The notes beneath the pieces are model-generated. The model ran no database searches, was not told the origin of the DNA, and saw nothing but the letters and a program-made list of their open reading frames with translations. From Rhodospirillales bacterium (lineage in GTDB: Bacteria; Pseudomonadota; Alphaproteobacteria; Rhodospirillales; Magnetovibrionaceae): DNA of 38,722 nucleotides. The stretch covers positions 1 through 38,722 of the forward strand of contig JANLGW010000060.1 in the NCBI GenBank assembly GCA_024653965.1. The letters run 5' to 3'. Position 1 is the stretch's first letter, and every line of letters starts with the position of its first letter. The position numbers and the translations under genes were made by a program. Positions 6,963 to 32,045 of the stretch are shown here, piece after piece.

Positions 6963-7610
6963 TCAGCAAATCTTGGCGTCGTAAGCACATAAATCGCTAA
7001 CGATGCAATTGGCGCAATCGGGCTTGCGTGCCTTGCACACATACCGCCCGTGCAAGATTAGCCAGTGGTGCGCATGGACCATAAAGGATTGCGGAATTTG
7101 CTTTAACAAGGCTTGTTCCACAGCCAGCGGTGTTTTTCCCGGCGCCAGCCCAGTGCGATTGGCGACACGAAAAATATGCGTATCCACCGCCATGGTCGGC
7201 TCATGCCAGCATACGTTGAGCACCACGTTAGCGGTTTTGCGCCCAACTCCGGGCAAGCGCTCCAGCAAGGCACGATCGCGCGGCACCTGGCCGCCGAATT
7301 CGTCAACCAGCATACGGCTGAGCGCGATGACGTTTTTGGCCTTATTGTTATACAGCCCGATGGTTTTGATGTGCTGTTTAAGGCCGTCCAGCCCCAGCGC
7401 CAGCATGGCTTGCGGCGTGTCGGCGATCTTGAACAATTTTTCGGTGGCGCGGTTTACACCCACATCGGTGGCTTGCGCCGACAGGGCCACCGCCACCACC
7501 AGGGTATAGGGGTTGGTCCAGTTCAATTCGGATTTGGGCTCTGGATTGTGCGCGCGAAGCCGGGTGAAAAACTCCTGCACGCCTGTTTTGTTCATGGCTG
7601 TTTTGTTCAT
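6963..7610 (-). CDS. nth: Endonuclease III, base-excision repair DNA glycosylase/AP lyase
   Basis: A ~215-residue enzyme that removes oxidised pyrimidines and nicks AP sites. It has the helix-hairpin-helix ERLPGVGRKTANVVLN, with Lys of GRKTA as the catalytic nucleophile; the catalytic Asp is in AVDTHIFRVANR. A complete 4Fe-4S loop, C-X6-C-X2-C-X5-C, lies near the C-terminus (CKARKPDCANC...C). The start is uncertain: in-frame ATGs lie at 7646, 7619, 7610 and 7595. TAAGG precedes 7610 by about 11 bases and 7619 by 2-3. A 15-base tandem duplication creates two of the four candidates. It diverges from the DUF2244 gene. Confidence 0.95.
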   Translation of the reverse strand: MNKTAMNKTGVQEFFTRLRAHNPEPKSELNWTNPYTLVVAVALSAQATDVGVNRATEKLFKIADTPQAMLALGLDGLKQHIKTIGLYNNKAKNVIALSRMLVDEFGGQVPRDRALLERLPGVGRKTANVVLNVCWHEPTMAVDTHIFRVANRTGLAPGKTPLAVEQALLKQIPQSFMVHAHHWLILHGRYVCKARKPDCANCIVSDLCAYDAKIC

Positions 7611-7661
7611 GACTGTCATGGCCTTACCGTACCCGCTTTTCGTCATATTTTTTACTGGAAA

Positions 7662-7691
7662 TTGCCGGGCGATATTGTCACATATTATAGT
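7662..7691 (+). promoter_or_regulatory. Candidate promoter giving a near-leaderless DUF2244 transcript
   Basis: TTGCCG (7662-7667) and TATAGT (7686-7691) are 18 bases apart. The predicted start point falls within a few bases of the ATG at 7695. No Shine-Dalgarno is visible before that ATG, which fits a leaderless or very short 5' end. Confidence 0.35.
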
Positions 7692-7694
7692 ATC

Positions 7695-8213
7695 ATGAGA
7701 ACCATCGACATTACCGAACAGGAACGCGACCAAAATGGGCTGAAGGCCTTGGTCATGACGTTGCGCCCGAGGCGCAGCGCCGATCCGCGCGTGGCTTATA
7801 CGCTGTGCGGCGTATTGGCGGTGATCTGGTTCAGCGCAGGCGTCTTGATCACCTACATGGGCGGCTGGCCGATCATCGGCTTTTTTGGCGGCGAATTTAT
7901 CTTTATCGCCGCCCTGGTGCACATTTTCATGCGCCGCACCGACGTGGTGGAAACGGTCGAAATCACTGCCAAAGACATTACCGTTCACCGCCGCGAATTG
8001 GGCCGCGAAGAAAGCAAGGTCTTTCCCGCCTATTGGGCGCATGCGGATTTTTCCGGCTCGCCCACCCAAAACGCCGCGCTGGAAATTCGCAGCCATGGCG
8101 AGGCGATTGAAATCGGGCGTTTTTTATCAGCCTCGGAAAAAGACCGCACCGCGTGGAAGCTCAACGATGTGCTGCAACGCTTTAGGGTCGCAGCCGCACA
8201 AAAGGAACAATAG
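7695..8213 (+). CDS. DUF2244-type membrane protein
   Basis: A 172-residue protein with two adjacent transmembrane helices (residues ~35-57 and 60-79, the latter with GGWPIIGFFGGEFIFIAALVH). These are flanked by an N-terminal TLRPRRSADPR and a soluble C-terminal beta-rich domain beginning VVETVEITAKDITVHRR. The 'LRP-RSL/S..R', WP..GFFG and E.V.IT...I.V.RR motifs are those of DUF2244, a common alpha- and betaproteobacterial family of unknown function. The frame runs upstream antisense to nth; ATG 7695 is the first start clear of that gene. No ribosome-binding site is evident. Confidence 0.8.
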   Translation: MRTIDITEQERDQNGLKALVMTLRPRRSADPRVAYTLCGVLAVIWFSAGVLITYMGGWPIIGFFGGEFIFIAALVHIFMRRTDVVETVEITAKDITVHRRELGREESKVFPAYWAHADFSGSPTQNAALEIRSHGEAIEIGRFLSASEKDRTAWKLNDVLQRFRVAAAQKEQ

Positions 8214-23916: not shown

Positions 23917-24762
23917 ATGACCCTTCGTGATACGCTCATCCACCTTGGCGCACAGCCCGACGATCAGATCATTTTGGCCGAAACGGCGCTGATGCTCGCG
24001 CTGTGGGCCGAGCCGACGTTGGAGTTAGGCCCCTATCATCGCCACCTGCAGGCCTTGAGCGAAGACGCACAAAATTATCTGCACGACGACGACGCGAGCG
24101 TGCTCTTAAGCGCCGAAGCGGCCCGGCAAATCATTCATCGCCGTTACGGTTACACCGGCATCTTGCAACCCGGCGACCCCGGCGAACAGGGCGACGGCGC
24201 CAACCTCGCCCGAACCATCGACAAACGCCGGGGCGGCGCGATGGCGCTCGGCATTTTATATCACCACGTTTTTACCGCCTTAGGGCTAATCGTCGAAATT
24301 CTCGATTTTCCCGCCCGGCCCTTGGTGCGCATCGAAGACAAACACGGCCAGCGCCTAGTGCTGGACCCGGTCGACGGCGGGCGCTCGATCGATGCCCGCG
24401 GGCTGCGCGAATTGTATCGCCACTACCGGGGCGGCGACGGCGCGCTTGATCCGTTCAGCCTATCGTCGTTGAACCAACGCGACGTATTGATCGCCCTGCA
24501 AGATCAAATCAAGGTGCATCATTTGCGTCTGGCTGCGCCCGAAGCGGCGCTGGCGGCGCTGGAAGCGGCATTGCTGATCGCGCCCAACCATGCCCGGCTG
24601 TGGCGCGAAGCGGGGCTGTTGCACGCTAGGCTCGATCATGTCGGCGACGCCATCGCGGCCTTGAGGCATTTTTTAGATTTGCCGGGAGGCGAGGCGCACC
24701 GCTATACCGTTTCTCAGTTGTTGCAACAGCTGCAAAACCGCGAGGATAAAAAACCGTCATGA
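23917..24762 (+). CDS. SirB1/transglutaminase-like protein with C-terminal TPR
   Basis: A 281-residue cytoplasmic protein of the SirB1 family (transglutaminase-like fold, function unclear). The N-terminal half has ALMLALWAEP and LSAEAARQIIHRRYGYTG. The central RRGGAMALGILYHHVFTALGL and VEILDFPARPLVRI blocks are the family core, but the usual Cys nucleophile region reads GAMALG, so protease or transglutaminase activity is doubtful. The C-terminus (~205-275) has two TPR-like helix pairs (ALAALEAALLIAPNHARLW, AIAALRHFLDLPGGEA). Its TGA overlaps the gshB ATG (ATGA at 24759-24762), so translation is probably coupled. Confidence 0.82.
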   Translation: MTLRDTLIHLGAQPDDQIILAETALMLALWAEPTLELGPYHRHLQALSEDAQNYLHDDDASVLLSAEAARQIIHRRYGYTGILQPGDPGEQGDGANLARTIDKRRGGAMALGILYHHVFTALGLIVEILDFPARPLVRIEDKHGQRLVLDPVDGGRSIDARGLRELYRHYRGGDGALDPFSLSSLNQRDVLIALQDQIKVHHLRLAAPEAALAALEAALLIAPNHARLWREAGLLHARLDHVGDAIAALRHFLDLPGGEAHRYTVSQLLQQLQNREDKKPS

Positions 24763-25703
24763 GCCTTAAAGTCGCCCTGCAAATGGACTTCGTCGAAACC
24801 TTAAACATCGACGCCGATTCCACCTTCGTCATCGGCTTGGAGGCTCAGGCGCGCGGCTACGAGCTGTTTTATTACCACCCCGACCAGTTGATGATGGAAG
24901 ACGGTCGGGTGATGGCGCGTGCGCAGCGTTTAAACCTGCGCCGCGAATTGGGCAACCACTACACGTTGGGCCAAGCGGAACTGACCGATCTTTCCACCTT
25001 GGACGTGGTGTGGCTGCGCCAGGATCCGCCGTTCGACATGGCGTATCTGACCACCACCTATCTGTTGGAGCGCCTGCAGCCAAAAACGTTGGTGGTCAAC
25101 AATCCGATGGAAGTGCGGGGCAATCCGGAAAAACTCTATATCGCCCAGTTTCCCGATTTGATCCCGCCCACGCTGATCAGCCGCGATACGGCGGCGATCC
25201 GGGCGTTTCGCGAAAAACACGGCGACATCATCGTCAAGCCGCTGTACGGCAATGGCGGCTGGGGGGTGTTCCACATTGCCCCGGGGGATGAAAACTTAAA
25301 TACATTGCTTGAAATGCATATGGCCGCATCGCGCGAACCGCTGGTGGTGCAGGCCTACATTCCGGCGGTGCGCCAGGGCGACAAACGCATCATCTTGATC
25401 GATGGCGAGCCGAAGGGCGCGATTAACCGCGTGCCACCCGAAGGCGAGGCGCGTTCCAACATGCATGCGGGCGGCACGCCACAACCGTGTACGCTCAATA
25501 AACGCGACCTGGAAATCTGCGCCGCCATCGGCCCGGACTTGCGCCAACGCGGGCTGCTTTTTGCAGGCATCGACGTGATCGGCGGTTATCTGACCGAGAT
25601 CAACGTCACCTCGCCCACCGGCTTGCAGGAAATCCGCCGTTTTGACGGCGTGGCGCTGGAACAAGACATCTGGAACGCCATCGAGGCCCGCCTAAAGGCC
25701 TAA
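24759..25703 (+). CDS. gshB: Glutathione synthetase
   Basis: A 314-residue ATP-grasp ligase joining gamma-glutamylcysteine and glycine. The prokaryotic GshB N-terminus is MSLKVALQMDFVETLNIDADSTF. VWLRQDPPFDMAYL, the ATP-grasp lysine segment IIVKPLYGNGGWGVF, and the C-terminal metal and substrate motifs GIDVIGGYLTEINVTSPTGLQEI are all present. The length is standard (~315). Its ATG overlaps the upstream stop. Glutathione made here would support redox balance. It ends convergent with the NTF2-like gene across a short hairpin. Confidence 0.97.
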   Translation: MSLKVALQMDFVETLNIDADSTFVIGLEAQARGYELFYYHPDQLMMEDGRVMARAQRLNLRRELGNHYTLGQAELTDLSTLDVVWLRQDPPFDMAYLTTTYLLERLQPKTLVVNNPMEVRGNPEKLYIAQFPDLIPPTLISRDTAAIRAFREKHGDIIVKPLYGNGGWGVFHIAPGDENLNTLLEMHMAASREPLVVQAYIPAVRQGDKRIILIDGEPKGAINRVPPEGEARSNMHAGGTPQPCTLNKRDLEICAAIGPDLRQRGLLFAGIDVIGGYLTEINVTSPTGLQEIRRFDGVALEQDIWNAIEARLKA

Positions 25704-25708
25704 AGTCT

Positions 25709-25727
25709 ACGCCTAAACCTTAGGCGT
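25709..25727. terminator. Short perfect hairpin between convergent gshB and the NTF2-like gene
   Basis: ACGCCTAA (25709-25716) pairs with TTAGGCGT (25720-25727) around ACC. The minus-strand stop codon lies within it. There is no T run. Confidence 0.45.
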
Positions 25728-26094
25728 TAGGCCCCAGCAGTTCCGCCAAACGGATGGTCCACGCACCGGCGCGGTTTTTCACCAACACATATAAATAGGC
25801 GTAAGCCTCCACCGTTTCGCCGCCTGCATCTTGCAACACATAGGCGACGGTGGCGGTGGCGTGATCCGGGCCGGACAAGCTGTAATCGCGCACCTGAACA
25901 TCGACCGCAATCACGCCCCGGGTGCGCAGCGTCGCCAGAAAACCTTCCAGGTGCTGAGCCAATTCATCGGCGTCGATGATCGCGTCCGCACCGGCCTGAT
26001 TGACGATCAGGCACGGATAGGCGAAGTGGCGCTCGATTTCTGCCGCATCATGCGCCAAAAACGCCGCGGCATACGTTTCAAAGTAGCGTTGCAC
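25720..26094 (-). CDS. NTF2-like/SnoaL-type small protein
   Basis: A 124-residue cone-shaped NTF2-like fold: the helix MQRYFETYAAAFLAHDAAEIERHFAYPCLIV, then beta strands with VIAVDVQVRDYSLSGPDHATATVAYVLQDAGGETVEAYAYLYVLVKNRAGAW split across strands 3-6, ending AELLG. Such proteins act as small-ligand binders, isomerases or immunity factors; nothing here fixes the ligand. The start is GTG 26094, preceded by AAGGGC at nine bases. It is the last of five minus-strand genes that begin at 28670, though 74 bases separate it from the next and cotranscription is unproven. Confidence 0.65.
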   Translation of the reverse strand: MQRYFETYAAAFLAHDAAEIERHFAYPCLIVNQAGADAIIDADELAQHLEGFLATLRTRGVIAVDVQVRDYSLSGPDHATATVAYVLQDAGGETVEAYAYLYVLVKNRAGAWTIRLAELLGPNA

Positions 26095-26168
26095 GTTTTT
26101 TGCCCTTCACTTTTTGCGCCTCAACGGGGCCGCCCGGTATTCAAGGTTATATAGGCAACTCTTGCCGC

Positions 26169-26846
26169 TTATACGAGCTCTGCCCGGTCTTTTTTACCGC
26201 TCATATTTTCCGTTTGGCGTTGCGTTTCCGACTTCCGGTCCTCGGCAATTTCTTGATGCGCCAACAGCGGGCCTAAACCCATCTTCCCTTGCAACAGCCC
26301 GCCGCCTTGCACACCGCTTTGTATCGTCGTGGCCTGCATCGACACGGTGGTCGTGCGCACGCTGAGCTCCGCCTTGTGCACGATGCCCACCGTATGCTGG
26401 TTTTGATCTTTGCCCTGGCTCTTTAACGCGGCGCTGGCCGCCATGCGTTTGATGATTTCGTTATCGACGATCTTTTCCACCTGGGCACGCTGTTCGGGCG
26501 ACATCGCGCTTAGGTCTTCCTCCGAATAACCCATGGCTTCCAAGATCTTTTTGCGCAGCTCTTTGAGTTTTTCTTCTTGCAGATCATCGACGAACGCAAC
26601 GAAGCCCTTTTCGCGAATGCGCTCGATCAGCGTCGGTTCATCTTCTTTAGCGGGCGTGTCTTCTTTCGTTTTGCTCGGCGCGGCAGCGCTGCTGTCCGTC
26701 ATCTGGGCCGTCATCTGAGCCGCCGCCTGGGCGAGGGCATCGCCGAACGACGTTGCCGCCTCCGTCCCATCCGTCCCGGCCTGAACACCAGACTGAACAT
26801 AAGACGCCATCTGGGTGGCGAACGGATTGGTGTGATCGATTTTCAT
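26169..26846 (-). CDS. Unknown charged helical cytoplasmic protein
   Basis: A 225-residue protein with no signal peptide, no membrane helix and no family I recognise. The N-terminus is Ala/Thr/Gln-rich (residues 1-60). A Lys/Glu-rich segment (60-75) precedes a predicted helical core (76-145) with IREKGFVAFVDDLQEEKLKE and LEAMGYSEEDLSAMSPEQRAQVEKIVDNEI. The C-terminus is Gly/Gln-rich and polar. The EDLSAMSPEQRAQVE motif resembles short helical segments of flagellar or export-associated proteins, but that is weak. ATG 26846 follows AGGAG. It is located between the Crp/Fnr regulator and the NTF2-like gene. Confidence 0.7.
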   Translation of the reverse strand: MKIDHTNPFATQMASYVQSGVQAGTDGTEAATSFGDALAQAAAQMTAQMTDSSAAAPSKTKEDTPAKEDEPTLIERIREKGFVAFVDDLQEEKLKELRKKILEAMGYSEEDLSAMSPEQRAQVEKIVDNEIIKRMAASAALKSQGKDQNQHTVGIVHKAELSVRTTTVSMQATTIQSGVQGGGLLQGKMGLGPLLAHQEIAEDRKSETQRQTENMSGKKDRAELV

Positions 26847-26968
26847 GGCTTTTCTCCTACTGGACGTGCGTGCACATTTTGCCGCTTAAGCGGCCCATAG
26901 ACGAGATGCAAGCAAAGGCCATGCCACGGATTTTAGAGTTAGGACTTGAAGATAAGATGACGCGGCGC

Positions 26969-27631
26969 TTAAACCGATCCCGCTTTGGCGCATTTGGCCA
27001 GGGCGCTTAAATCAAGCAGGCGCAGCCGCCCGCGCCCCGTTTCCACCAAGCCGGAGGCAACCCATTCGCCCACCTGCCGCGCCACCACTTCGCGGGTGGT
27101 GCCGATGTGATGGGCCAGTTCTTGCTGGGTGCCCAGCACCAGGCCTTCGCTGGATGCGTGAGTGAGCAAAAAGGCCGCGAGGCGCTGATCTAAGCGCGTG
27201 GTGTGTACCTCTTCCAACTCGGCCATCAGGCGAAACACCGCCGTCGATAACGCGCGCACGGTCAAATCTTGAATACCGCGCTCACGCTCGAACAAGGTGC
27301 GATAGAGTTGGCCGGGCACGATGCCCACGACCGTATCGGCGGCGGCCTCGACCCATGCCGGATAGAGCAGATCGTTAAACAGGCTGTTCAGCGCCAACAC
27401 GCAGGTTTCACCGGGGCGGATGAAATACAGCGTCGCTTCTTTGCCGCCGGGGCCGAAGGTATAAACGCGCAGCTGCCCGTGCAGCACAAAATACGCGCCC
27501 GAAACCGTGTGGCCCTTTTCGATCACCGCCCTGCCGCGATGCAAGGTGCGGCGCACCAAACGCTTTTGCAGCAACGCCTGGGCATCCTTGGATAGTTCGC
27601 TATAGAACTTTAGGGTATCAAGCTCCGCCAC
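26969..27631 (-). CDS. Crp/Fnr-family transcriptional regulator
   Basis: A 220-residue regulator. The N-terminal cyclic-nucleotide-binding-like beta barrel (residues ~20-115) has GRAVIEKGHTVSGAYFVLHGQLRVYTFGPGGKEATLYFIRPGETCVLALNSLF. The dimer helix is ~115-150. The C-terminal Crp-type helix-turn-helix is ~165-205, with TQQELAHHIGTTREVVARQVGEW. Cys99-like residues are few, so an FNR-type 4Fe-4S sensor is unlikely. The canonical cAMP-pocket pattern is not obvious either, so the signal is unknown. The start is GTG 27631 with AGAGG five bases upstream. It follows the DUF4142 gene after a 148-base hairpin-rich gap. Confidence 0.9.
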   Translation of the reverse strand: MAELDTLKFYSELSKDAQALLQKRLVRRTLHRGRAVIEKGHTVSGAYFVLHGQLRVYTFGPGGKEATLYFIRPGETCVLALNSLFNDLLYPAWVEAAADTVVGIVPGQLYRTLFERERGIQDLTVRALSTAVFRLMAELEEVHTTRLDQRLAAFLLTHASSEGLVLGTQQELAHHIGTTREVVARQVGEWVASGLVETGRGRLRLLDLSALAKCAKAGSV

Positions 27632-27669
27632 ACCATCCTCTTATTTTATTTCGTTTAGGCGGACGCAAA

Positions 27670-27762
27670 CGGCGTCCGGTCCAGGGGCCCCCGGGAAGTT
27701 CCCGGAAAGACTATTGTGCCTGGACCGAACGCCGCCGCCAAGGGGTAGGGCGACCTTGGCGG
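27670..27762. repeat. Nested inverted-repeat element between the DUF4142 and Crp/Fnr genes
   Basis: Outer arms at 27670-27685 and 27719-27734 pair at 15 of 16 positions. They enclose a perfect CCGGGAA-G-TTCCCGG hairpin (27691-27705). A further perfect pair, CCGCCAAGG (27735-27743) and CCTTGGCGG (27754-27762), follows directly. It could be a processing or termination structure, or a small non-autonomous repeat element. Confidence 0.6.
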
Positions 27763-27779
27763 TATTTGGGGCGGTATTT

Positions 27780-28331
27780 TTAAGGCGCGATATCCAGTTT
27801 GCGCGCTACGTCTTTGGTCGCCGCGAGGTGCGCCTCAAAACCCGGCAAGACGTTGCTCACCAGATTTTGAAACTGCGGATTTTTGATTGACGGCAACAAG
27901 GTGCCTTTGACCGCATCGATCACCGCCTGATGAAAGGCGATTTCATGCAGCAGATAAGCGCGGTCGAACGCCGGGCCGGACAGAGCTTCCAGCTTGGCCA
28001 GCGTCTGCGCCTGATCGGCCAAAGACTGATCACCATCGGGCGGGGTGCCGACATAACCCAAACCCTGGGCCAATTCGCGGCCCATCTGTTGCACCGCCGA
28101 GTGGTCGTTCACCACCATTTTCGCCAACGCCTTAACCTCGGGAGCATGGGCTTTTTTCCAGCCCAGCCGCCCGGTCGAAATGTCGGCCATATTGGCTTGG
28201 TCGAAAATGGCGTAAATGGTTTCGTCGTCTAGCCCTGTGCCTGCCTGGGCGGGGGCGCTCACCAGCAAGGCCAGCGCGGCCAGAGTGCTGAGCGAGCAAA
28301 GCTTCAATATGTTTTTGCAAATAGGATTCAT
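27780..28331 (-). CDS. DUF4142 exported ferritin-like protein
   Basis: A 183-residue protein with a Sec signal peptide (hydrophobic LSTLAALALLVSAPAQA, cleavage after AQA, residue ~30). The mature part is a four-helix DUF4142 domain: ETIYAIFDQANMADISTGRLGWKKAHAPEVKALAKMVVNDHSAVQQMG contains the conserved Ala-x-x-x-Lys and Asp-His. FDRAYLLHEIAFHQAVIDAV supplies further His residues. DUF4142 proteins are periplasmic and ferritin-like in fold, common in stress-linked loci, with no proven activity. The ATG follows GGAGAG. It lies 36 bases downstream of the DUF4242-like gene. Confidence 0.85.
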   Translation of the reverse strand: MNPICKNILKLCSLSTLAALALLVSAPAQAGTGLDDETIYAIFDQANMADISTGRLGWKKAHAPEVKALAKMVVNDHSAVQQMGRELAQGLGYVGTPPDGDQSLADQAQTLAKLEALSGPAFDRAYLLHEIAFHQAVIDAVKGTLLPSIKNPQFQNLVSNVLPGFEAHLAATKDVARKLDIAP

Positions 28332-28367
28332 GGTCTCTCTCCTTAAAGGGGGGGGTGCGTAAAGCGC

Positions 28368-28670
28368 TTAAGCGGCGCGGCTGAAAAACAGGTCGCCGAG
28401 CGTCGCCATCTGAACTTCGGTGATGGAATCGAACGGCAGCAATACCCGGTCATGCCCGCGGCGCACGGCATCGGCATCGGGCGCCATGGTGAGGCAAAAC
28501 GCACGGTCATCGGCAAAACCGACATGCACGCGCACGATGATCACACCTTCGGCGGCGCAGGCTTCTTCATACTGGGCAAAAAAGCCTTTGAACTGTTCGG
28601 GCGTGAGGCCGGTGGGAAAGGTTTGCTGTTTGGCGTCGTGGGTATCGATGAAAAATTTCAAGCTTGGCAT
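28368..28670 (-). CDS. DUF4242-like (SCO4226-type) small protein
   Basis: A 100-residue ferredoxin-like-fold protein. LTPEQFKGFFAQYEEACAAEGVIIVRVHVGFADDRAFCLTMAPDADAVRRGHDR gives the family pattern: a helix, then strand VxxxRVHVG, then RAFCLTxAPDxxAVRRxH. Streptomyces SCO4226 of this family binds nickel; whether this member does is unknown. ATG 28670 is preceded by GAGGAG. It is the first gene of the minus-strand set with the DUF4142 and Crp/Fnr genes. A dyad at 28741-28766 lies 70 bases upstream. Confidence 0.75.
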   Translation of the reverse strand: MPSLKFFIDTHDAKQQTFPTGLTPEQFKGFFAQYEEACAAEGVIIVRVHVGFADDRAFCLTMAPDADAVRRGHDRVLLPFDSITEVQMATLGDLFFSRAA

Positions 28671-28740
28671 TTTTAAGTCTCCTCGGTCGTCGGCAGTTCA
28701 AATCATTGTGATGCCCGAAGACTAAGGCCCGCATGGGCCG

Positions 28741-28766
28741 CGTTCTGTAGCCTAAGCTACACAACG
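28741..28766. promoter_or_regulatory. Dyad operator candidate TGTAGC-N4-GCTACA
   Basis: TGTAGC (28746-28751) and GCTACA (28756-28761) flank CTAA. The symmetry extends to CGTT (28741-28744) and AACG (28763-28766), with one unpaired C on each side. The half-site spacing is that of Crp/Fnr-family sites. It sits between the divergent DUF4242-like operon and the REC-GGDEF gene. Confidence 0.5.
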
Positions 28767-28906
28767 GAAATTTTTCTCCCGCCCCTAAAACCCTTTATGG
28801 GCCGCGATGTTGTAATTGTTTAAAAAGACCCTGCGGCACACCAAATATGAACTCTCGTGCGCAGAACGCGCTGTTCAGCTTCTCCTATTGAAAGAAGGAG
28901 TTTGCC

Positions 28907-29824
28907 GTGCGTTTTTTGCTCATCGAACAGGATAAAGATTACGCCGAGCGCCTGGGCGCCATGATCGAAACGTGTTGCCCGCGCGGAGTCGAAATCGACC
29001 TGACCTACCGCTGCGATACCGCGCACACCTTGATCGGCACGCACAATTACGATGTGTGTTTTTTGGAATACCTGTTGGATGCGCCATGCACCGGGTTGGA
29101 CTTGCTGCGTGAACACAATCACGCCTCGTCGTTGACCGCATTTGTTTTGCTCACCACCCACGCCAACAAACAAGCGGCGTTCGAGGCTTTGGTGCTGGGC
29201 GCGATGGATTATCTCATCAAGGATCGTTTCACCCCCTTTGAGCTGGCCAAATGCATTGCCTATTCGATGTATTTAAAACACCGCGAAGTGAAACTGCAGA
29301 CCGACGCCTTGCGCGATAGCCTGACCGGCCTTGGCAATAAGGGGCTGTTTCACGCGCAGCTGGAGCAGGCCGCCAAGCGCGCCTCACGCGACGATGAAAT
29401 TTTAGGCCTGCTGGTCATCGATATCGACGGTTTTAAGACCGTCAACGATCAATACGGCCACACCGTGGGCGATCTGCTGTTGCAGCAAATCGCCGAACGC
29501 ATCGTCATGGAAACCCGCGCCAGCGACGTCATCGCGCGCATCGGCGGCGATGAGTTTGCCGCCATTTTGATCAAACCAAAATCCGTTGATCACATCTACG
29601 CCGTGGGCAAAAAGCTTGAACAGGCGCTCACCGCGATGCCGTATAATTTAAACGGCACCATTGTCAAAATCGGCGCGAGCGTGGGCAGTTCCATCCTGCC
29701 CGACGATGGCACCGATCTGAACGCCCTGTTCAAGCTGGCCGATACCCGCATGTACAAAGCCAAAAACACCAAAAAAATCGGACGCGACCACGCCCGCGAT
29801 TATATGGATCAGGTGCTGCGCTGA
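28907..29824 (+). CDS. Response-regulator diguanylate cyclase (REC-GGDEF) with Glu at the phospho-site
   Basis: A 305-residue cytoplasmic protein predicted to make c-di-GMP from two GTP. The REC domain (residues ~1-125) has the acidic pair region FLLIEQDKD, but the phospho-acceptor position reads Glu54 (VCFLEYLL) instead of Asp; Thr in LLTTH and Lys in YLIKD are kept. The GGDEF domain (~140-300) has DSLTGLGNKGLF, DIDGFKTVNDQYGH and the intact RIGGDEFA. The inhibitory I-site RASD lies five residues before GGDEF, so product feedback is likely. The start is GTG 28907 with AAGGAG at 28895-28900. Confidence 0.92.
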   Translation: MRFLLIEQDKDYAERLGAMIETCCPRGVEIDLTYRCDTAHTLIGTHNYDVCFLEYLLDAPCTGLDLLREHNHASSLTAFVLLTTHANKQAAFEALVLGAMDYLIKDRFTPFELAKCIAYSMYLKHREVKLQTDALRDSLTGLGNKGLFHAQLEQAAKRASRDDEILGLLVIDIDGFKTVNDQYGHTVGDLLLQQIAERIVMETRASDVIARIGGDEFAAILIKPKSVDHIYAVGKKLEQALTAMPYNLNGTIVKIGASVGSSILPDDGTDLNALFKLADTRMYKAKNTKKIGRDHARDYMDQVLR

Positions 29825-29830
29825 TTTTTC

Positions 29831-29858
29831 TTGCACAGCCAATCCAGCGCCCTACACT
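29831..29858 (+). promoter_or_regulatory. Promoter of the comM remnant and membrane gene
   Basis: TTGCAC (29831-29836) and TACACT (29853-29858) are 16 bases apart. The same hexamers, spacer length and 33-base distance to the ATG recur before intact comM. Confidence 0.6.
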
Positions 29859-29891
29859 CATTCAGGATAATGAATGATAACGGGGCACTCC

Positions 29892-29945
29892 ATGGTCGCA
29901 CGCATCACCACCGCCGCGTTTCAGGGCACCCAGGTGCAGCAATGA
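29892..29945 (+). pseudogene. Duplicated 5' fragment of comM, 17 codons then stop
   Basis: Bases 29890-29940 are identical over 51 bases to 30502-30552, the start of comM. The frame reads MVARITTAAFQGTQVQQ and stops at TGA 29943-29945. That stop overlaps the ATG (29942) of the downstream membrane gene as ATGA, so the fragment could act as a translated leader peptide. It is probably a remnant of a duplication rather than a functional ComM. Confidence 0.85.
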
Positions 29946-30412
29946 GGCTTGCCGTGGAGCAATACCCTGATCAAACAAAACCGCACAAGATCATGGTAGC
30001 GATAAAGCTCCTCTACACTGCATTCGGCATAGAGTTGATGCTGAGTTTTCTGGATGATTTTTTAACGGGTGAGCTGTTTTCGTTTGGCGGCCTGTTCGGC
30101 CTGTTTCTTATTTTTTGGATATATTGGGCGCTTATCCGATTGATAGATCGTGGTCATAAAAAAGCGCTGATCGTTTTTTCGACGTGTGTCATTTTGAATT
30201 GGGCGTTTGTCATCTCTGTGCTGATTTTTGATCTTCCCATGGAAAGTTTTACCCTTGCCGAAGGGGCGATATCGCCCCGATCCAATAATTTGCTTTTTAA
30301 CACCCTCTCCACATCAGCGAGTGTCATGAACGCCATCGCACTCTACTTACTATTCCAAAAATCATCTTTTGGATGGTTTGGGCAGCGGGCCCAGATGAAG
30401 CGCGTCGGTTAA
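29942..30412 (+). CDS. Orphan four-helix membrane protein inside the comM repeat unit
   Basis: A 156-residue protein of no family I recognise. A short polar N-terminus precedes about four hydrophobic segments: residues ~17-34 (VAIKLLYTAFGIELML), 43-64 (LFSFGGLFGLFLIFWIYWAL), 73-94 (ALIVFSTCVILNWAFVISVLIF) and 125-142. A short basic C-terminal tail follows. Base composition is clearly less GC-rich than comM or gshB, which hints at recent acquisition. ATG 29942 overlaps the comM-fragment stop. No independent ribosome site is clear, so translation may depend on coupling. Confidence 0.65.
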   Translation: MRLAVEQYPDQTKPHKIMVAIKLLYTAFGIELMLSFLDDFLTGELFSFGGLFGLFLIFWIYWALIRLIDRGHKKALIVFSTCVILNWAFVISVLIFDLPMESFTLAEGAISPRSNNLLFNTLSTSASVMNAIALYLLFQKSSFGWFGQRAQMKRVG

Positions 30413-30442
30413 TGGGCCAGTAGCGCCTTCAACATAAACCCC

Positions 30443-30470
30443 TTGCACGCCCAGAAGCTGCCGATACACT
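30443..30470 (+). promoter_or_regulatory. comM: Promoter of comM
   Basis: TTGCAC (30443-30448), a 16-base spacer and TACACT (30465-30470) lie 33 bases before the comM ATG. Both hexamers and both distances are identical to the upstream copy, although the spacer and leader sequences are unrelated. Confidence 0.6.
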
Positions 30471-30503
30471 CGTAAGATCACTTTTTACGAGCAGAGAGTT
30501 CCC

Positions 30504-32045
30504 ATGGTCGCACGCATCACCACCGCCGCGTTTCAGGGCACCCAGGTGCAGCCCGTCGACGTGCAGGTGCATATGGCGCAGGGGCTGCCGAGTTTCACCA
30601 TCGTCGGCCTGCCCAATAAAGCGGTGTCGGAGGCCAAAGAACGCGTGCGCGCCGCCCTTTCGGCACTGGGACTGGCGCTGCCGCCCAAACGCATCACCGT
30701 CAATCTTTCGCCCGCCGACACGCTCAAAGAAGGCTCGCACTTCGACCTGCCCATCGCGCTCGGCCTGCTCACCGCCATGGGCGCGCTGCCCGAGGGTGAA
30801 ATAGCGGGGCACATGGCGCTCGGCGAATTGGCGCTGGACGGCACGTTGACCGCCGTTTCCGGGGTGCTGCCCGCCGCCATCCACGCCCATGGGTGCAATC
30901 TGGTGCTGATCTGCCCGGCAAAACAAGGCGGCGAGGCGGTGTGGGCGGGCGAGGCGCTTAGCGTGCTGGCACCCCAATCTTTGATCGAATTGCTCAATCA
31001 TTTCAAAGGTGTACAATTGCTCAAACGACCGCAGGCCACCCTCGCGCCGGATTTAAGCGGTCCGCACCTTGATCTGGCCGACATCAAAGGCCAGGAAAGC
31101 GCCAAACGCGCGTTGGAAATCGCCGCCGCTGGCGGGCACAATTTATTGATGAGCGGCCCGCCCGGATCGGGTAAATCGCTGCTGGCAAGACGCTTGCCTG
31201 GCATCTTGCCGCCGCTGACGCCGTCCGAGGCGCTGGAAGTCTCGATGATTCATTCGCTTAGCGGAACGTTACCCGAGGGCGGATTGATGCGCACCCGGCC
31301 CTTTCGCGATCCACACCATTCGGCAAGCACCGCGGCCTTGGTCGGCGGCGGCACCCAGGTGCGCCCCGGCGAGGTGTCGCTGGCCCATTTGGGTGTGCTG
31401 TTTTTAGACGAATTGCCAGAGTTTCAGCGCCCGGCGCTGGAAGCGTTACGCCAGCCGATCGAAAGCGGCGAGGCCGTAGTGGCGCGCGCCAGCGCCCATG
31501 TTTCGTTTCCGGCACGATTCCAACTGATCGCCGCCATGAACCCGTGCCGCTGCGGCCATTTGGACGACGCAAGCCAAGCCTGTTCGCGGGCGCCCAAATG
31601 CGCGGAAGATTATCAGGGCCGGTTGTCCGGACCGTTGCTGGACCGTATCGATTTGCACGTCGATGTGCCGCAGGTACCCGCATCTGATCTGGCCCTCCCG
31701 CCGCCCTGTGAGACCAGCGCCGACGTCAAGGCCCGCGTGGCCGCAGCACGCGCCATCCAGAGCGAGCGGTTCGAAGCTTTAAACAGCGACGCGCGCACCA
31801 ACGCCGAAGCCGACGGGCGTCTGCTGGAAAGCATCGCGCCCCTGGACGGCGCGGCCAAACTCCTGCTGGCCGATGCGGCGGCGCGCATGCGCCTGAGTGC
31901 GCGCGCCTACCACCGTATCCAGCGGGTGGCGCGCACCGTCGCCGACCTGGATGGATCGCAAGCGATCTTAAAGCTGCATGTGGCGGAAGCGTTGAGTTAC
32001 CGCCGCCGCCTGCCGGGGCGGCAAACCGTCAGCATGTCCGCTTAA
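30504..32045 (+). CDS. comM: YifB/ComM family Mg-chelatase-like AAA+ helicase
   Basis: A 513-residue hexameric AAA+ protein; ComM promotes branch migration during natural transformation in several bacteria. The N-terminal Lon-protease-like domain is residues ~1-165 (VDVQVHMAQGLPSFTIVGLPNKAVSEAKERVRAAL). The Mg-chelatase AAA domain (~185-400) has Walker A GPPGSGKSLLARRLPGILPP and Walker B-type VLFLDELPEF, followed by AAMNPCRCG. The C-terminal domain is Mg_chelatase_C (ARAYHRIQRVARTVADLDGS). ATG 30504 has GAGAG just upstream. The gene is intact; its first 49 coding bases are duplicated 612 bases upstream. Confidence 0.95.
   Translation: MVARITTAAFQGTQVQPVDVQVHMAQGLPSFTIVGLPNKAVSEAKERVRAALSALGLALPPKRITVNLSPADTLKEGSHFDLPIALGLLTAMGALPEGEIAGHMALGELALDGTLTAVSGVLPAAIHAHGCNLVLICPAKQGGEAVWAGEALSVLAPQSLIELLNHFKGVQLLKRPQATLAPDLSGPHLDLADIKGQESAKRALEIAAAGGHNLLMSGPPGSGKSLLARRLPGILPPLTPSEALEVSMIHSLSGTLPEGGLMRTRPFRDPHHSASTAALVGGGTQVRPGEVSLAHLGVLFLDELPEFQRPALEALRQPIESGEAVVARASAHVSFPARFQLIAAMNPCRCGHLDDASQACSRAPKCAEDYQGRLSGPLLDRIDLHVDVPQVPASDLALPPPCETSADVKARVAAARAIQSERFEALNSDARTNAEADGRLLESIAPLDGAAKLLLADAAARMRLSARAYHRIQRVARTVADLDGSQAILKLHVAEALSYRRRLPGRQTVSMSA

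Follow-up and report, generated by a model that had tools for sequence, protein, structure and literature searches.

A 612-bp comM leader–cargo unit with counterparts in other Alphaproteobacteria: a possible scar of mobile DNA

Introduction

How does a membrane gene come to lie between a complete comM gene and a second, short copy of the 5' end of that same gene? The question is raised by a 38,722-base stretch of DNA (referred to below, at its full length, as the window), where such a unit is found directly upstream of comM. The product of this gene is described in PMC10293859 as facilitating recombination of DNA taken up by transformation. The original prediction read the arrangement as a captured cargo gene or as the scar of a mobile element that used the comM start as its target. 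Here, we compare the unit with comM loci of related genomes and weigh the processes that could have produced it.

Results

The repeat unit and its cargo gene

The intact comM gene (30504..32045, + strand; ORF list and ComM search) encodes a YifB/Mg chelatase-like AAA ATPase of 513 aa; the name comM is that of the original prediction and of annotated relatives. A repeat search of the window bore out the predicted pair of identical copies, composed of CC and the first 49 nt of comM: an upstream copy at 29890..29940 and a downstream copy at the start of the intact gene, at 30502..30552 (both + strand; 51 nt, 100% identity, spacing 612), such that the ATG codons are at 29892 (fragment) and 30504 (intact gene). 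This pair is the only exact direct repeat of at least 25 nt in the window, where the longest exact repeat expected by chance is ~15–16 nt, and a whole-genome search found one copy of the unit in the window's genome (G000). A fragment of the target gene, which ends at nt 49 (codon 16–17), is found on one side of the insert, on the same strand as comM and upstream of it, with other DNA between.

The 561 bp between the copies hold a single sizeable gene, the cargo gene (29942..30412, + strand; ORF list and database searches), which encodes a 156-aa membrane-protein-like product; a 193-aa ORF from 29831 is the same gene with a longer, in-frame TTG start. The enclosed DNA (29941–30501) is AT-richer, as had been predicted, with 46.3% G+C vs 58.2% for the whole window. 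The 156-aa protein matched no Pfam family at E 0.01, and searches for relatives found none among the other 316 genomes from the order (1/317, i.e., the window itself), none in plasmids and no confirmed one in viral contigs. The cargo gene ends 91 nt before comM, i.e., its stop does not overlap the comM start, the ORF list holds no recombinase between the copies, and a search of the unit itself yielded neither an attachment motif nor an integrase.

Neighborhood of comM

To the left of comM, relatives retain a gshB-like gene (24759..25703, + strand, from the comparison of loci), and to the right are genes that are presumably HIT, hisE and hisF; this gene order is found both in the window and in genome G021. 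The gene content of the gshB–comM interval differs among the loci read. Three genes in the window at 25704–29830 (CRP-like, DUF4142-like and a 100-aa gene) are common with G011 at 58–69% identity; G011 alone among the family loci read has these genes, the others carrying different ones there.

Among the family loci read, with 1.5–4 kb upstream covered and nearest ComMs ~80% identical, no upstream comM fragment was found except in G017, where a comM start lies at a contig end and differs from that on the other comM contig of this genome, a possible second case in the window's family. Another family member, G009, has a comM split near codon 283–296, at Walker B (L041 = G009:C61, L040 = G009:C28), and the ORFs between the halves, labeled by eye, resemble TnsA, TnsB, TnsC and TniQ, i.e., a Tn6022-like insertion.

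That the unit is an artefact of draft assembly is a thought invited by the 153 contigs of this genome and by other cases that lie at contig ends (G017, G056, G294), but the unit is internal to a contig of 38.7 kb, where conserved genes lie to either side of it, and the same architecture is found in isolate genomes and in one single-contig genome, which makes an artefact very improbable.

Duplicated promoter-like sites and the leader frame

A promoter-like site, identified by motif and putatively functional, precedes each copy: CTTGCAC...TACACTC at 29830..29859 (+ strand; TTGCAC 29831–29836, a 16-nt spacer, TACACT 29853–29858) upstream, and its counterpart before intact comM at 30442..30471 (+ strand; TTGCAC 30443–30448, TACACT 30465–30470). 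CTTGCAC and TACACTC are equidistant from both ATGs, with no shift (29830/29853 vs 30442/30465), and also precede comM in members of the window's family. The remainder of the 70 nt before the ATGs has diverged, with little shared beyond the two motifs, and the 70-nt alignment score is modest (22 of 500 shuffles equal or better); the weight for upstream homology is placed on the two in-register motifs, not on the overall score. It is probable from these motifs that the promoter and the 5' end of comM were duplicated together. The duplication originally described as 51 identical bases does contain them, but the block reaches further upstream than claimed, and the combination of 51 identical bases with diverged promoters suggests gene conversion.

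The in-register motifs also bear on transposition. Equal direct repeats flanking a membrane gene are what an insertion with a 51-bp target-site duplication would leave; however, comM-promoter motifs in register before both copies mean that the right copy exceeds a duplicated target, the sole sizeable gene in the 561 bp is the membrane gene, and repeat lengths among relatives range from ~50 to 890 bp. A target-site duplication was set aside on account of the in-register motifs, and we consider it barely conceivable.

The upstream copy opens a 17-codon comM leader frame, MVARITTAAFQGTQVQQ (29892..29945, + strand), which may be expressed. Its TGA (29943–29945) overlaps the ATG (29942–29944) of the 156-aa membrane gene as ATGA. 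The upstream copy had been described as a dead fragment of 17 codons; the length is right, but the fragment is not plainly dead and, judged by its reading frame, need not be so, because its stop overlaps the cargo start.

The pattern GTTC-N7-GTTC, which we take to be LexA-box-like, or its complement was observed in 13 of 30 comM upstream regions (L012, L014, L018–L022, L024, L025, L028, L029, L031, L049), and the same upstream-region scan found it before neither of the window copies; a LexA-box link was set aside. In PMC6473078, comM is named among LexA-regulon genes.

Recurrence of comM N-termini in other genomes

Stray N-terminal matches were already seen in a full-length ComM search of 60 relatives. 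A profile built on residues 1–50 (A1) detected comM in 262 of the 317 genomes searched from the order, and 19 of the 262 gave two or three N-terminus matches, vs two matches in 3 of the 254 genomes (of 317) that matched a profile covering 49 positions at the C-terminus (A3). The difference (19/262 vs 3/254) has a Fisher p of 0.0007, which serves only as a guide because at most ~21 candidates were scored per genome and the genomes are not independent. The number 19 is a lower bound because the window was itself missed, its fragment being too short.

The 19 genomes were reread together with the single-match genomes G115 and G034. A same-strand 5' fragment lies upstream of comM on one contig in 13 of them, the nearest 0.5–2.1 kb away (G021, G068, G141, G152, G155, G157, G159, G163, G164, G165, G181, G219, G291); the downstream comM runs off the contig in G141 and is itself split at Walker A in G164. 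The remaining six are G256, where comM is disrupted, and G017, G054, G056, G126 and G294, which involve contig ends or other contigs, the pair in G056 being only a 141-base contig overlap. Two comM 5' fragments without an intact comM nearby were also observed (L039, G034:C41:79-237, and L037, G054:C191:13488-13640); by eye, one of the two runs into IS3-like transposase sequence and one precedes a hydantoinase-like gene.

A second sample, drawn evenly from the class, comprised 387 genomes at least 90% complete. Here, comM was present in 323, of which 12 had two or more N-terminus matches, and in six of the 12 a same-strand fragment is located 0.8–4.7 kb before a full comM (G348, G359, G382, G469, G481 and G604, with G469 a single-contig genome). 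The other six are G457, with comM split at codon 34, and G402, G508, G510, G552 and G558 (other contigs or contig ends). The search for comM 5' fragments in front of other genes, which the original prediction proposed as a check, was accordingly successful in other genomes.

Outside these samples, 5,381 places in 5,375 E. coli genomes match the first 200 bases of yifB, with a maximum of two per genome, i.e., duplication of the comM 5' end is at most rare in this species. A tblastn search with the 50-aa N-terminus matched 49 plasmid and 20 phage records; four of these 69 were examined and showed full yifB, yifB annotated as two pieces, or a 900-nt phage gene, and among these four no carrier of a comM 5' piece as attachment site was recognized.

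Architecture of the units in relatives

The similarity between copies extends upstream of the ATG in G163, G219, G068, G181, G291, G021, G348, G382, G481 and G469, and begins at the start codon or at most 4 bases before it in G141, G152, G155, G157, G159, G164, G165, G359 and G604, a group to which the window belongs by exact match. The left fragments end at variable positions, from nt 48 to 214. Cargo types vary and include an L,D-transpeptidase, DUF4279, a phosphodiester glycosidase, cytochrome b561 with a dihaem cytochrome c, an N-6 methylase, an HD protein and a helix-turn-helix protein; 12 of 20 proteins scanned (the L138 recombinase described below among the 20) have no Pfam match, and G068 has no clear gene between its copies. 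Pieces of comM occur in a row, four in G141 and two in G157.

In 8 of 27 tabulated units, the leader stop overlaps, as ATGA, the ATG that opens an ORF of ≥97 aa (the window, L087, L094, L095, two in L098, L099 and L115), and 19 of the 27 have no such overlap; in L089 the ATGA leads into a 51-aa ORF only. The cargo is fused in frame to the leader in L093. An overlap between the end of the cargo gene and the start of the comM that follows is seen in several Magnetospirillum relatives (L087, L090, L094, L097, L098, L099, L106).

A plain local duplication of the comM promoter and 5' end, between the copies of which an unrelated gene arrived later, would explain why the block from promoter to ATG appears doubled, as well as the long near-identical blocks seen elsewhere, e.g., 350 bp at 97% identity in G163. 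The copies in relatives enclose different genes, however, and a single duplication of the whole block is at odds with 51 identical bases next to a diverged promoter; this explanation is rather improbable.

Filled and empty alleles

Between two M. fulvum genomes, DSM 13234 (L109) and MGU-K5 (L110), the alignment covers the promoter and comM as far as nt 104 and resumes at an ATG; the extra DNA between the break and this ATG distinguishes the filled from the empty allele. The same pattern, with a break near nt 105, is found for P. caucaseum SO-1 (L126) and P. marisnigri SP-1 (L125). It had been predicted that recombination between the repeats would delete the enclosed gene and leave a single intact comM. 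The M. fulvum alleles have this geometry, but insertion and loss are indistinguishable there.

For the upstream fragment of P. caucaseum, the closest sequence is that of the sister species (92/105). This does not hold for the downstream nt 1–105 (81/105) but holds once more for the 208 bases that follow (189/208), similarity farther on being variable, down to 34/52. By these counts the downstream nt 1–105 look foreign. The downstream copy in M. fulvum looks native (99/104 vs 95/104), i.e., the two species disagree on which copy is foreign.

Entry points, recombinases and a junction motif

Many fragments in relatives stop at nt 90–111, near codon 32–35. Others, found twice in L087 and also in L094 and L140, consist of comM 1–16, 1–30 or 1–37 joined to pieces whose ends lie near codon 217, shortly before Walker A. 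Near-identical duplications (94–97%) that end at comM nt 137–143 were observed in L086 (G219), L088 (G163) and L141 (G382), and may mark a third entry point. A common insertion site at nt 104 for all units was considered and dropped in view of the Walker A relics (L087, L094, L140) and the ends at nt 137–143. The recurrent ends are near codon 32–35 and at Walker A, and the comM start itself as the point of entry, which the original prediction had proposed, is not supported; the window fragment, which ends at nt 49, breaks at neither of the two recurrent points.

A recombinase is found at one of the recurrent points and recombinase-like ORFs at the other. In G457 (L138), an insert of ~5.5 kb is located at the codon-32 point, a 523-aa protein with Resolvase, Recombinase and zinc-ribbon domains adjoins its left junction, and comM has a short new N-terminus. 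At Walker A, comM is split and its 3' part lies elsewhere in P. marisnigri (L125), P. caucaseum (L126) and the MAG of L120, with serine-recombinase-like ORFs, labeled by eye, near the junction in L126/L136 and L120/L137. The hosts of comM split at Walker A are two Paramagnetospirillum species and a related MAG (L125, L126/L136, L120/L137); in L125, ORFs near or beyond the junction resemble a relaxase and a primase by eye. A single query with the L138 recombinase had no match in G000, and among 10 family genomes searched only G013 had one.

The motif CCNNTT, which was chosen after looking, lies shortly past the break in 6 of the 11 fragments assigned to codon 32 (nt 96), 5 of 8 Walker A fragments and 2 of 12 other ends, with shuffle means of 1.05, 0.98 and 1.02, respectively, site classes and ends having been assigned by eye. 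In the codon-32 class, it lies 9 or 10 bases past the placed break each time, the breaks of L098 and L144 having been set at nt 90 (indels); the Walker A motif windows were not set to one base. The window break lacks this post hoc motif.

These entry points have to be set against a one-sided homologous addition, where an incoming membrane gene with a comM start is joined by homology on the right and illegitimately on the left, after codon 16, without an integrase. Such an addition explains the doubled promoter and 5' end as well as the variable left ends (nt 48 to 214), and it agrees with the foreign appearance of the 5' end in P. caucaseum. It also explains the downstream copy in G469 (L143), where a 201-bp internal gshB fragment (7523–7723), 97.5% identical to the resident gene, abuts the duplicated comM promoter behind the N-6 methylase cargo, a block that looks like the product of recombination with other chromosomal DNA. 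However, the addition predicts neither fragment ends at codon 32–35 and Walker A, nor the junction motif, nor recombinases at the same points, and differences in the 51 coding bases, too, would be expected from a donor whose promoter is so unlike. We consider it possible, on balance unlikely.

Discussion

A possible decayed integrative element

The reading that we consider best, at evenly balanced confidence, is that an integrative element, most likely one that depended on a large serine recombinase for its movement, entered comM and has since decayed, with the 612-bp unit as its scar. The original alternatives, a captured cargo and a mobile-element scar in comM, would be two halves of this one reading, which is the one in closest agreement with the comparison of genomes; the comM start as target is not supported. 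An element would first insert toward the 5' end of comM, either around codon 32–35 or at Walker A (codon ~217), leaving the promoter and the 5' codons upstream of the insert. The 5' end of comM would then be re-supplied behind the insert; its source would be the element or, through recombination, another comM-bearing molecule. Deletions would subsequently leave only one or a few genes of the element, and the comM piece upstream would be trimmed. What remains of comM would act as a leader: the cargo would be driven from its promoter and start, through translational coupling to a short frame that ends in ATGA.

What can be read from the sequences of relatives is that comM fragments recur, that filled and empty alleles exist, that a serine recombinase is present at codon 32 and recombinase-like ORFs at Walker A, and that a junction motif and stop/start overlaps occur. 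That the window arose by the same steps, with the 5' end re-supplied in one of the ways above and a coupling that works, we infer, because no attachment site or integrase has been kept there.

The evidence for a scar comprises the recurrence of comM N-termini, the filled and empty alleles, the recombinase at codon 32 and the recombinase-like ORFs at Walker A, CCNNTT, the ATGA overlaps, and the two papers on serine integrases discussed below. Against it, the window fragment ends at neither entry point and without the junction motif, and several fragments in relatives end elsewhere, e.g., at nt 137–143, with 19 of 27 units having no ATGA overlap with an ORF of ≥97 aa. The recombinase-bearing elements seen (L125, L126, L120, L138) carry no comM 5' copy, which leaves the re-supply step without a source, and the foreign-looking copy differs between species, being downstream in P. 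caucaseum, yet the downstream copy looks native in M. fulvum. Finally, 51 identical nucleotides beside strongly diverged promoters require gene conversion or an odd donor. Our confidence in the scar goes no further than an even balance because element marks are absent from the window, the L138 recombinase has no match in G000, and the 51 identical bases lie beside diverged promoters.

If elements that enter comM regularly shrink to small genes with a comM leader in front while comM is rebuilt, the locus records how hosts tame insertions, and the host gains new co-expressed genes at a DNA-processing gene. A further reading, which we hold doubtful, is that the comM start is an alphaproteobacterial gene-acquisition locus, integron-like without an integrase of its own, where foreign genes are repeatedly acquired behind a retained leader and translationally coupled to it, comM being rebuilt each time; were this true, arrays such as those in G141 (four pieces) and G157 (two) could lose units via recombination between comM pieces.

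Comparison with known systems

Integron gene cassettes are small genes in tandem behind a resident promoter. The tandem comM units (four pieces in G141, two in G157) resemble them in this respect, but the repeated part is here comM coding sequence. SXT, which inserts in prfC, is an integrative element that replaces the 5' end of its target gene; the likeness lies in a native 5' end displaced to one side and an intact gene with a new 5' end, whereas elements of the SXT type carry their own integrase and here none was found with a comM 5' copy. AbaR islands are grouped with the comM-targeting transposons. The magnesium chelatase gene of the serine-integrase studies we take to be of the ComM family (ComM/YifB-type).

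Of the site-specific serine integrases predicted by Durrant et al. 2022 (PMC10083194), 12.4% are reported to target a magnesium chelatase/ATP-dependent protease gene, and the Wolbachia prophage sr1WO is a serine-integrase element in a magnesium chelatase gene, portions of which flank the element (PMC9203015). If that target gene is of the ComM family, the L138 and Walker A elements look similar to those described (PMC10083194, PMC9203015); in those systems, however, a full element splits the gene, whereas the window has a full comM downstream, an insert with no recombinase, and a 5' piece that forms a leader. Tn6022-like and Tsy transposons are described as entering comM at Walker B via TnsF, thereby splitting it (Faure et al. 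2023, PMC10293859). These share with the window comM as a dedicated target and, for Tsy, a 5' portion of comM upstream of the element; the window differs in that its unit is at codon 16, not at Walker B, and comM is whole.

Insertion of serine-integrase elements in a magnesium chelatase/comM-type gene is already known. For comM 5' fragments and cargo before an intact comM, i.e., recurrent, partly tandem and often translationally coupled leader–cargo units, we found no earlier description in titles and the beginnings of abstracts, mainly of the open literature, which is weak evidence of novelty. Set beside these systems, comM is a favored target of several kinds of mobile DNA, and arrangements like that of the window recur before comM elsewhere in the Alphaproteobacteria, apparently scars left by such DNA on entering this gene.
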